A stretch of DNA of 42,277 nucleotides from Clostridiales bacterium (GTDB lineage Bacteria; Bacillota; Limnochordia; Darwinibacteriales; B1SED10-159), in assembly GCA_003559095.1 (NCBI GenBank), contig PWMW01000283.1, positions 1 to 42,277 of the forward strand. The letters run 5' to 3'. This document shows, in pieces, positions 1 through 40,300 of this stretch (positions are counted from its first letter, which is position 1; every line of letters starts with the position of its first letter). The notes beneath the pieces are model-generated. The model made no database searches, was not told the DNA's origin, and was given only the letters and a program-made list of their open reading frames with translations. Both the position numbers and the translations under genes were made by a program.

Positions 1-245
1 CACGGGACGGGCAGCCCCTTCTCCTCTATTTGGCCTTGCTCCGGATGGGGTTTACCTAGCCGACTGATCACCCAGTCGCTGGTGAGCTCTTACCTCACCG
101 TTTCACCCTTACCCAAATCGGGCGGTATATTTCTGTGGCACTAGCCTTAGGGTCGCCCCCACTGGGTGTTACCCAGCATCCTGCCCGTTGGAGCTCGGAC
201 TTTCCTCGGTGCAAATGCCCGCGATCATCCGGCCCACTCAGTTTC
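1..245 (-). ncRNA. rnpB: RNase P RNA (partial, 3' end beyond window)
   Basis: This is the catalytic RNA of RNase P, which removes 5' leaders from pre-tRNAs. On the minus strand the universally conserved 5' block GAGGAAAGTCCGAGCTCC lies at about 192-209. The block ACAGAAATATACCGCC lies near 121-137. The 3' conserved GGGTAAGGGTGAAACGG followed by the GGTAAGAGCTCACCAG hairpin lies at about 79-115. The order and spacing match bacterial type A/B RNase P RNA. The 5' end is placed near 245 from the promoter just upstream; the 3' end runs off the left edge of the window. Confidence 0.95.
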
Positions 246-2162: not shown

Positions 2163-2390
2163 ATGCGCCTGCAGATTCATTACTGTACTGCTTGAGGGTA
2201 TTTGCCCAAAGCCGTCAGTTTGGCGGAAAAGCTGTTGAACGAACACAAGAACAACATCGCTGCTCTTGAACTAGTACCTTCGTCTGGTGGTGTATTTGAG
2301 GTATTTGTAGATTCCAAGTGCCTCTTTTCCAAAAAGGAACTGGATCGGTTCCCGGAGGAGGACGAAGTGGAAAGCGCCCTGCGCTCCTAA
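2163..2390 (+). CDS. SelW/Rdx-family selenoprotein with in-frame TGA (Sec)
   Basis: Reading from ATG 2163, which is preceded by a very strong GGAGGAGGTG, gives MRLQIHYCTA, then TGA at 2193-2195, then GYLPKAV and onward to TAA at 2390. Decoding the TGA as selenocysteine yields a 75-residue protein with the CxxU redox motif (Cys8, Sec11) directly after the first beta strand, exactly where Rdx proteins (SelW/SelT/SelH) carry CxxC or CxxU. Downstream, LVPSSGGVFEVFVD and the SKKELDRFPEEDEV tail are hallmark segments of small bacterial SelW-like proteins. The role is inferred as thiol/selenol redox with an unknown partner. Standard ORF calling would report only the 62 residues after the TGA, starting at TTG 2202 with no ribosome site. 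The gene is monocistronic, between its own promoter and a strong terminator. It implies that the genome encodes selA, selB, selC and selD, which are not in this window. Confidence 0.9.
2190..2226 (+). promoter_or_regulatory. Candidate bacterial SECIS hairpin(s) at the Sec codon
   Basis: Two local hairpins can be drawn by eye. One has GCTT (2190-2193) pairing with AAGC (2209-2212) and GGG (2196-2198) with CCC (2205-2207), which puts the UGA at the stem base. The second has GCCG (2211-2214) pairing with TGGC (2221-2224), with loop TCAGTT whose G lies about 22 bases after the UGA. The two share bases and exclude each other. Bacterial SECIS elements lie just 3' of the UGA and carry a guanine in the apical loop, so the second fits that rule better. 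Not energy-folded. Confidence 0.4.
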
Positions 2391-2401
2391 CAGTTTGGCA
2401 G

Positions 2402-2435
2402 AACCCCGAGGCGAGAAGAGCCTCGGGGTTTTTCT
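2402..2435 (+). terminator. Rho-independent terminator of selW-like gene
   Basis: AACCCCGAGGC pairs with GCCTCGGGGTT around a short GAGAAGA loop, followed by a T tract. It begins 12 bases after the stop codon. Confidence 0.9.
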
Positions 2436-3819: not shown

Positions 3820-5642
3820 TTAGACTCCCCCCTTCCCCGTGGGCCTTCATCTTTTATTCGTCTTACCAGATGAAATACCTTTTTTCTAACGGAAAAATAG
3901 CTATAGACCATTTGGAACAATGTATCCTTTGCCGTCACACGTTCTTTGTTTTTCTCCATGGAACTGAGGTTTTCCTCTATTTTGGCCAGCTCACGGGAAA
4001 AAATCGTTGCTTGCATGTGGTCAAGGTATTCCCGCCAGCGACCTTGAGGTGTTTCCAGTTGAAACAAGTCCTGGGCGGCCTTTTCACCCTGGAGATCCCA
4101 AGAACCATCCAATAGGAGCGCGTAGAGATGCCGATAGTCATCGTTTTGAAAGTGACGTGGCAAAATGCCTTCTCGACGCAGTTCGTCTAGGAGCTCAGGT
4201 TGACGGAGGACTCGCCGGAGAACATCACGTTCCACGGACTCGCCCTGATCTCGCAAAGTTCGCGGTACCGTTGGCTGCAGTTTAGCAGCAGCGGACGAGC
4301 CGCCCACCGCTGACCGGCGACCATCGCCTCGGGAATGCACAGGCCTGCTGCTCACACGCTGTGCCACATCGCTGCGCAGTGCTGCAGCATCCACGCCCAG
4401 TGCATCTGCGGCGAACTGAACGTACTCATCTCGCCGCACAGCTTCAGATATGGTGGCTAGAACACCTACTATTTCTTGAGTGGCCCGCAGTTTTCCTTCT
4501 CTATTTTGTATATCATGAAGTTGCATTGCCTGTCGAATGAGATACTCCGGCCACGGCAGTGCTGTCTCCAACCACAGCTGCAGATGTTCCGGATCCGATT
4601 GGCGGGCAAAGGTGTCCGGATCCACGCCAGCTTCCAACGGTGCTACAAAGACCTCCAGTCCATTTTGCCGCAGCAGATGAATACTTCGTACAGCCGCCTT
4701 CTGGCCAGCAGTGTCGCCATCAAAGGCAAGAATGGCTCGACCGGCAAAGCGCTGTAAGAGCCGTGCGTGATCCGCAGTAAAAGCCGTCCCCAAAGAAGCG
4801 GTTGCATAATCGATCCCCTTCGCTGCAAGACTAATGCAATCGGTATAGCCTTCCACCAAGATAGCGGTTCCCTTGTCTTTGATGGCATCTTTGCTCCAGT
4901 TTAGCCCGTAGAGGGCTTGAGCTTTGCGGAATATGGGGCTTTCCGATGAGTTCAGGTACTTCGGTGTCCCCTGCCCGACACTGCGGCCGCCAAAGCCCAG
5001 AAATCGCCCTTGATGATCGCAGATGGGGAAAATGATCCGCTGGCGAAAGCGATCATACAATCCCCGCTCGCCCTGAAGGGACAATCCCGCCTGAACTAGA
5101 AGCTGATCACGAAACCCCTGCTGCCGTAGATACTCGGTCAAAGCATCCCACTGATCCGGAGCATAACCCAAAAAGAAGCGGCGAGCCAGCTCCTTATGGA
5201 TGCCCCGGCCTGCCAGGTATTGGCGGGCGGCCTTGCCTTCAGCAGTTCGCAGAGTTCGATAGAAAAACTCCGCGGCCTTGTGGTTCAAGCGGTACAAAGA
5301 GTCCCGCTCCTGTTGCCGCTGGGTATCCTCGGCCGACCTTTGGGGCACTTCAATTCCCGCCCTAGCAGCCAAGGTCTCCGCCGCCTCGGGAAATGTTAGG
5401 CCTTCAGTCCGCATGAGGAAGTTGAAGATATTACCGCCGGCACCGCAGCCAAAACAATAAAAAAACTGCTTTTCTGGATTCACAGAAAACGAAGGCGTCT
5501 TTTCATTGTGAAAAGGACACAGCCCTGTGTAGTTCTTGCCCGTCTGCTTGAGATCCACTTTGGCACCGACAATGTCGACAATGTCCGACGCGCCCTTGAC
5601 CTTCTCCAACCATTCATCGGAGAACTGAGCCAACCATATCAC
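3816..5642 (-). CDS. dnaG: DNA primase
   Basis: Synthesizes RNA primers at the replication fork. Domains in order: an N-terminal zinc-ribbon with [13 protein letters not shown] near residues 42-54 and [11 protein letters not shown] near residues 61-71; the catalytic core with toprim motifs LVEGYTDC near residue 262 and [12 protein letters not shown] near residue 308; and a C-terminal helicase-interaction region of low conservation. The 608-residue length is typical. The frame opens with GTG at 5642, five bases after the dgt stop. A TTG at 5633 with AGGTG six bases upstream is an equally good start and would shorten the protein by three residues. It overlaps rpoD by four bases. Confidence 0.97.
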
Positions 5643-24893: not shown

Positions 24894-25141
24894 AAAAATA
24901 AAAGGACCTCTTCGACTCTGTTCGAGGCGAAGAGATCCGCGGTACCACTCGATTTGGTGCAGCTATGCACCCACTCCATTCCGGTAACGGCGGATGCCGC
25001 CCAAGCCTACTGACCACAGGGTTCAGCCGGGACTCCGAGGTGAGTTCATCACTTCTCCAGTACCGCTTCGCAGCGTTCCGCGGCTCTCTGCAACTGGCAG
25101 AAATGAATACTATTCCTCATCAGCGTTTTCGTATAGGTCTA
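24894..25141 (-). promoter_or_regulatory. T-box riboswitch, leucine (leuS leader)
   Basis: The T-box GAGTGGTACCGCGG lies at 24950-24937 on the minus strand. The terminator GATCTCTTCG...CGAAGAGGTCC runs into TTTTATTTTT (24937-24894). In Stem I, GAGG pairs with CCTC. The specifier loop shows AATAGTA on the 5' side and GATGAA-CTC-A on the 3' side, so the specifier is CTC (25044-25042), a leucine codon. Confidence 0.95.
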
Positions 25142-26491: not shown

Positions 26492-26752
26492 AATATAAAA
26501 CGGCCTGCCTCCCCAAGGGACGACAAAGCCGCGTTACCACCCAAATTCAGTGAACATGCGCTCACTGCACTCGCATCCCGTTAACGGAGGATATACCGAA
26601 GCGGGCCTACATAGCTGCACTGTTTGGCCCCTTGGGTCCCGGAGGTAACTTCACTGTACACTGGTACCAGCTCACACCAACCGCTGGCTCTCTGCAAAGG
26701 CAGCGTGCAGCTACTTCATCCGTTCATGCCCTCTGCAATAAGCTTCATACTG
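26492..26752 (-). promoter_or_regulatory. T-box riboswitch, tyrosine (tyrS leader)
   Basis: The T-box GGGTGGTAACGCGG lies at 26542-26529 on the minus strand, followed by a terminator with CGGC pairing to GCCG and an inner GTCCC/GGGGA hairpin before TTTTATATTT. In Stem I, CGGA pairs with TCCG, and the specifier loop holds GAAGT-TAC-C. TAC (26647-26645) is a tyrosine codon. Confidence 0.92.
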
Positions 26753-40043: not shown

Positions 40044-40300
40044 TAAAAAAAACACTACGTGCGCCCCAAGGGACGCAAATAGTGCGCGGTACCACCCAAA
40101 TTGATCTCTGCCTTAGGCAGACGATCCTCTTGATCCGATAACGGCGGAGACCGGCTGCGCCTACTGTCAGTTCAGCGCGCGGCTTCGGAGGGAATTTCCC
40201 CGGCATTTCATGAAAGAAGCTTCCAGTCAGCGGCTTCTTCTCCCTGTCACTGCCTGCCGTGTACTTATCTCCATCATTGCCAATATGTATGGCCGTGCGG
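40044..40300 (-). promoter_or_regulatory. T-box riboswitch, phenylalanine (pheST leader)
   Basis: The T-box GGGTGGTACCGCG lies at 40097-40085 on the minus strand. The terminator CACTA...GCG...CGC...TAGTG is followed by eight T (40084-40044). Stem I pairs GGAG (40272-40269) with CTCC (40190-40187). The specifier loop has ATAAGTA on the 5' side and GGAAA-TTC-C on the 3' side, so the specifier is TTC (40194-40192), a phenylalanine codon. The 5' boundary is approximate. The nearest good promoter is 160 bases further upstream, beyond a small gene. Confidence 0.94.

Follow-up and report, generated by a model that had tools for sequence, protein, structure and literature searches.

The window, that is, the whole stretch of 42,277 nucleotides that was analysed, contains a putative SelW-like selenoprotein gene of the Rdx family on the plus strand at positions 2163–2390. 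The frame opens with ATG at 2163, runs through ten codons (MRLQIHYCTA), meets TGA at 2193–2195 and remains open up to the TAA stop at 2388–2390, so that the gene comprises 75 codons. With selenocysteine (Sec) assigned to the TGA at codon 11, the product has 75 residues: MRLQIHYCTAUGYLPKAVSLAEKLLNEHKNNIAALELVPSSGGVFEVFVDSKCLFSKKELDRFPEEDEVESALRS. The CxxU redox motif is encoded at 2184–2195 (+) by TGT ACT GCT TGA and corresponds to C8-T-A-U11; both position 8 and position 11 are invariant in the alignment of homologues. This interrupted and continuing frame had been described in the original prediction, together with a good ribosome site at the ATG, a promoter and terminator fitting the longer frame, and a 62-residue fragment as the outcome of standard annotation.

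Under the standard code, the sole listed ORF in this frame does encode 62 aa, with a TTG start at 2202. Being open under that code, it could be taken for the real gene, with the upstream codons and the TGA as non-coding sequence. However, this ORF has no ribosome site of its own, and the strong site GGAGGAGGTG (2148–2157, +; 5 nt upstream of the ATG) serves the start at 2163, as had been claimed. Two defining features of the Rdx family, the first strand and the redox motif, are also missing from the short ORF, and the codons upstream of it are conserved as protein across phyla. On the grounds of this conservation and of the ribosome-site position, the TTG-start reading was rejected as very improbable. 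The annotation of the locus needs correction, since standard gene callers would lose or truncate the SelW-like gene.

Downstream of the TAA, an intrinsic terminator at 2400–2432 (+) fits the longer frame, as expected; it consists of a 13-bp stem and a 7-nt loop with a T-rich 3' arm, and its stem (−24.9 kcal/mol) was equalled in stability by none of 200 shuffled sequences. The promoter proved weaker than claimed: a single sigma-70-like match (TTGGCC-16-TATAGT, 2111–2138, +) agreed at 9 of 12 positions, with 0.4 such sites expected by chance, and by itself it cannot be told apart from a chance hit.

In the window, the gene is isolated, flanked by trmK (minus strand) on one side and a tRNA-rpoD-dnaG stretch on the other. 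At the loci of the homologues L036 and L037, the order of rpoD and the Nif3-like and trmK-like genes agrees with that of the window, and a ribosome-binding site is also located upstream of both of these SelW-like genes. In some other lineages, the SelW-like gene adjoins selenium genes, namely yedF and the gene of a Se/S-carrier protein (L038) or selD (L046 and L070), and these neighbourhoods link it to selenium metabolism at the genomic level. The window also contains three T-box leaders (24920–25132, 26513–26736 and 40066–40286, minus) and, at 1–240 (minus), a cut-off RNase P RNA gene.

Rdx family assignment and conservation of the UGA codon

The read-through protein was compared with family profiles, and residues 2–74 of its 75 matched the Pfam family Rdx (PF10262; E = 3.5e-22, 78.8 bits, cut-off 22.6). 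The NCBIfam models NF041051 (SelTWH_Campy; 91 bits, cut-off 88) and TIGR02174 (63.2 bits, cut-off 34.2) were matched as well. Because the Rdx match runs across the TGA, the residues on either side of it form one protein, which confirms the claim of a continuous Rdx-family protein with a CxxU motif. Solved Rdx proteins were matched by sequence, including the mouse-type selenoprotein W (PDB 2npb, E = 1.4e-5). Homology to these structures suggests a thioredoxin-like (Rdx) fold, and the protein is most likely a CxxU thiol/selenol redox protein of the thioredoxin fold.

A UGA at the same codon was found in 37 distinct homologous sequences. The identity of the TGA-bearing homologues to the protein of the window was 87% within the same genus, 82% within the same family and 62% within the same order, falling to 36–59% in other classes and phyla. 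The named records with TGA belong to a Limnochordia MAG, Anoxynatronum, Acetoanaerobium, Desulforadius, Pirellulales, a Verrucomicrobia MAG, Gammaproteobacteria and Desulfobulbus. The Rdx match extends to either side of the TGA, and dozens of other genomes contain this frame interrupted by the same TGA; the frame is therefore real and not a product of chance. In the relatives, the residue at the Sec position was only Sec (UGA) or Cys, the two residues that the proposed alignment at residue 11 had been meant to look for. Loss of the N-terminal strand and CxxU motif in close relatives would have spoken against the prediction; both are kept there, with TGA at the same codon.

An early in-frame stop is usually read by annotation software as a sign of a pseudogene or of a sequencing error, so that a former Cys or Trp codon would now be nonsense in a dead gene, or a base would be wrong; the draft quality of the assembly is in keeping with this. 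Against it, the 37 sequences with TGA at the same codon come from independent assemblies, including finished genomes, the remaining protein is conserved and open, and silent-site conservation and covariation are found right after the TGA (see below). In view of this conservation, the explanation was rejected, and we consider it highly improbable.

Among 101 sampled genomes of relatives, a homologue was found in 13, with TGA in 11 and with Cys in two (G054 and G072). All 11 genomes with the TGA form carry selA and/or tRNA-Sec at strict thresholds; at the same thresholds, neither was found in the two genomes with the Cys form. This association of the TGA form with the machinery is informative, though the Cys cases are few (two) and the machinery is present in roughly half of the genomes sampled.

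A SECIS-like hairpin inside the coding sequence

A candidate upper hairpin of a bacterial SECIS (bSECIS) was located by comparative analysis at 2212–2226 (+). It has a stem of 5 bp (2212–2216 with 2222–2226) and a 5-nt loop, AGUUU (2217–2221), which starts 21 nt after the UGA and has G as its second base. These values fit the published bSECIS geometry, namely a loop of 3–9 nt, a stem of 4–16 bp, G in the first two loop positions and a spacing of 16–37 nt (PMC13188914).

The comparison covered 51 nt from the UGA onward in the 37 distinct Sec homologues, which were aligned without gaps, the stem being formed by columns 20–24 with 30–34. The hairpin count excludes one locus, L069, as its UGA was not picked automatically by the motif filter. 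It was found that 93.5% of the stem cells were paired, compared with 81.7% in shuffles and 22.7–63.8% in slid controls. Two-sided changes were observed in 19 cells, compared with 4.0 in shuffles, and none of 500 shuffles reached 19; the shuffles do not remove relatedness among the sequences. A pure ancestry artefact seems unlikely as the source of the covariation, because independent pair types occur across phyla. In two of the five stem pairs, both partners are third codon positions; of all third-position pairs tested, these two have the highest and second-highest mutual information, and one of them, pair 1, shows all four Watson–Crick types (CG, UA, GC and AU). Covariation at third positions is not attributable to protein constraint. 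In addition, a run of ten codons spanning the hairpin is identical between the window, L036 and L037, in which most other codons differ, silently or not. In the Cys homologues L028 and L034 the stem is absent. The hairpin with its compensatory changes at third positions thus presents a clean comparative case of an RNA element within a coding sequence.

Taken alone, the hairpin of the window is weak (−6.1 kcal/mol for the local 23-nt piece, z = −0.96; the published bSECIS limit is −7.5 kcal/mol, PMC13188914). Energy folding of the window RNA alone did not single out the SECIS, which is not the minimum-energy fold of a 64-nt stretch. At the same stem position, values of −10 to −18 kcal/mol were obtained for the homologues L026, L027 and L029. 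Competing constrained hairpins proposed for individual loci were dropped, as only the hairpin at 21 nt recurs with covariation. Four clostridial sequences (L038, L039, L040 and L061) do not have the exact stem and carry strong hairpins with GU-containing loops 17–18 nt after the UGA, which would correspond to a one-codon shift of the SECIS.

Residue 19 of the protein is encoded by loop nucleotides (columns 25–27; window positions 2217–2219). Of the 37 Sec homologues, 36 have Ser, Arg or Gly at this residue, each from a codon whose central G is also the G of the SECIS loop; the two Cys homologues have Gln and Lys. We lean slightly towards the view that the SECIS of the SelW-like genes is an old element peculiar to this family, whose form and position (5-bp stem, loop N-G-U/G-N-U, 21 nt after the UGA) have been preserved in Firmicutes, Planctomycetes, Verrucomicrobia and Proteobacteria. 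Such an element would also have shaped the protein, residue 19 being nearly always Ser, Arg or Gly because the middle G is the loop base read by SelB.

Selenocysteine machinery and further candidate selenoproteins of the genome

The original prediction implied a Sec machinery in this organism and proposed a search for its genes. The genome from which the window comes (G000) is a draft of 4.18 Mb in 421 contigs, with a completeness of 95.0% and a contamination of 5.2%, and selA, selB, tRNA-Sec (selC) and selD were all found in it. The genes selA and selB (487 and 335 bits) lie side by side with tRNA-Sec (anticodon TCA) on contig C167, and selD (391 bits) is located directly behind yedF on contig C306. 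In G001, a genome of the same genus, the stretch with selA and selB is collinear, with nucleotide identity of about 71% over 3 kb, and the sequence upstream of it has counterparts in both G001 and G002; this agreement speaks for C167 as a genuine part of this lineage and against contamination. tRNA-Sec was not detected in G001 and G002, which could have spoken against the prediction; the reason is that both assemblies break off before the selC place known from G000, the contig of G001 at 4170, just behind selB, and that of G002 within selA.

Reading through UGA in the SelW-like gene would also be expected if this codon were reassigned throughout the organism, for example to Trp or Gly. Such a reassignment is at odds with the normal use of TGA as a stop, since this codon terminates 11 of the 26 long ORFs retained in the window, as well as with the presence of tRNA-Sec, selA, selB and selD and with the restriction of the homologous residue in relatives to Sec or Cys. 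This possibility was rejected as extremely improbable.

With these four genes, the frame, the conserved UGA and the hairpin with compensatory changes all seen at the sequence level, strong comparative evidence points to actual Sec insertion at codon 11. Thus, the prediction of a SelW/Rdx selenoprotein hidden by an in-frame TGA is supported by the machinery, the UGA conservation and the SECIS hairpin. We are nearly certain that the locus is a single-gene unit for a 75-residue SelW-like protein, in which UGA at codon 11 would be read as Sec by means of SelA, SelB, SelD and the hairpin, and Cys8 and Sec11 would form a redox pair. In the proposed mechanism, SelA would make Sec-tRNA(Sec), drawing selenophosphate from SelD, and SelB would bring it to the ribosome, docking on the hairpin at 2212–2226 just downstream of the UGA. 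The CxxU pair would be placed between the first strand and the first helix, and the product is most likely a thiol/selenol oxidoreductase that reduces or detoxifies some substrate with the aid of small thiols or thioredoxin.

SelW-like CxxU selenoproteins in bacteria have been known since 2005 from the Sargasso Sea and genome surveys (PMC1088965, PMC1794560), and reviews of 2022 and 2026 list them as predicted with high confidence. The family and its use of Sec are already described, and the present gene is a further member. It shares with the bacterial SelW-like (SELENOW-like) proteins (PF10262/TIGR02174/NF041051; PMC1088965, PMC1794560, PMC13188914) the fold family, the size, the CxxU motif with Sec at the second redox position and a SECIS just downstream. 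It differs from them only in its host, an uncultured Limnochordia-like lineage, and in its setting, as it stands alone between trmK and the tRNA/rpoD region and not beside selenium genes. Mammalian selenoprotein W (PDB 2npb) has a homologous Rdx domain with CxxU; however, the eukaryotic SECIS lies in the 3' UTR, whereas here the element is inside the coding sequence right after the UGA. Rdx proteins with Cys (PDB 3dex and 2fa8; L028 and L034) have the same fold and carry CxxC at the same place, with Cys instead of Sec, and L028 and L034 lack the SECIS stem. A literature search for Limnochordia and selenocysteine revealed nothing specific.

Other genes with Sec were also sought in G000. The alpha subunit of formate dehydrogenase is the commonest bacterial selenoprotein; none was found in G000 by a search that works in control genomes. 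Searches for GrdA and GrdB gave no match in G000, but the control genomes were likewise without a match, so that this negative result carries no weight. A search for AhpC-TSA domains revealed three further genes with in-frame TGA, all of the peroxiredoxin (Prx) superfamily. In the first (L083; G000:C217:40942-41337, minus strand), a peroxiredoxin gene, the TGA occupies the position of the peroxidatic Cys (FTFV-U-ATE) and a strong hairpin with an AGUU loop is present; this gene likely encodes a second selenoprotein of G000. The other two, L085 (G000:C244:468-839, minus strand) and L086 (G000:C370:61-432, plus strand), are Prx-like and have UxxC motifs (RGFM-U-PFC and RGFA-U-PFC, respectively) and AGUU-loop hairpins. 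In all three genes, the AGUU loop follows soon after the UGA and has the same loop core as that of the SelW-like gene. The Sec trait in G000 may be kept by SelW-type and Prx-type redox proteins, and this uncultured Limnochordia-like lineage would make at least one, and probably four, selenoproteins, with no formate dehydrogenase alpha subunit found among them. The genes L085 and L086 are close copies of each other and could be either two paralogues or strain variants.
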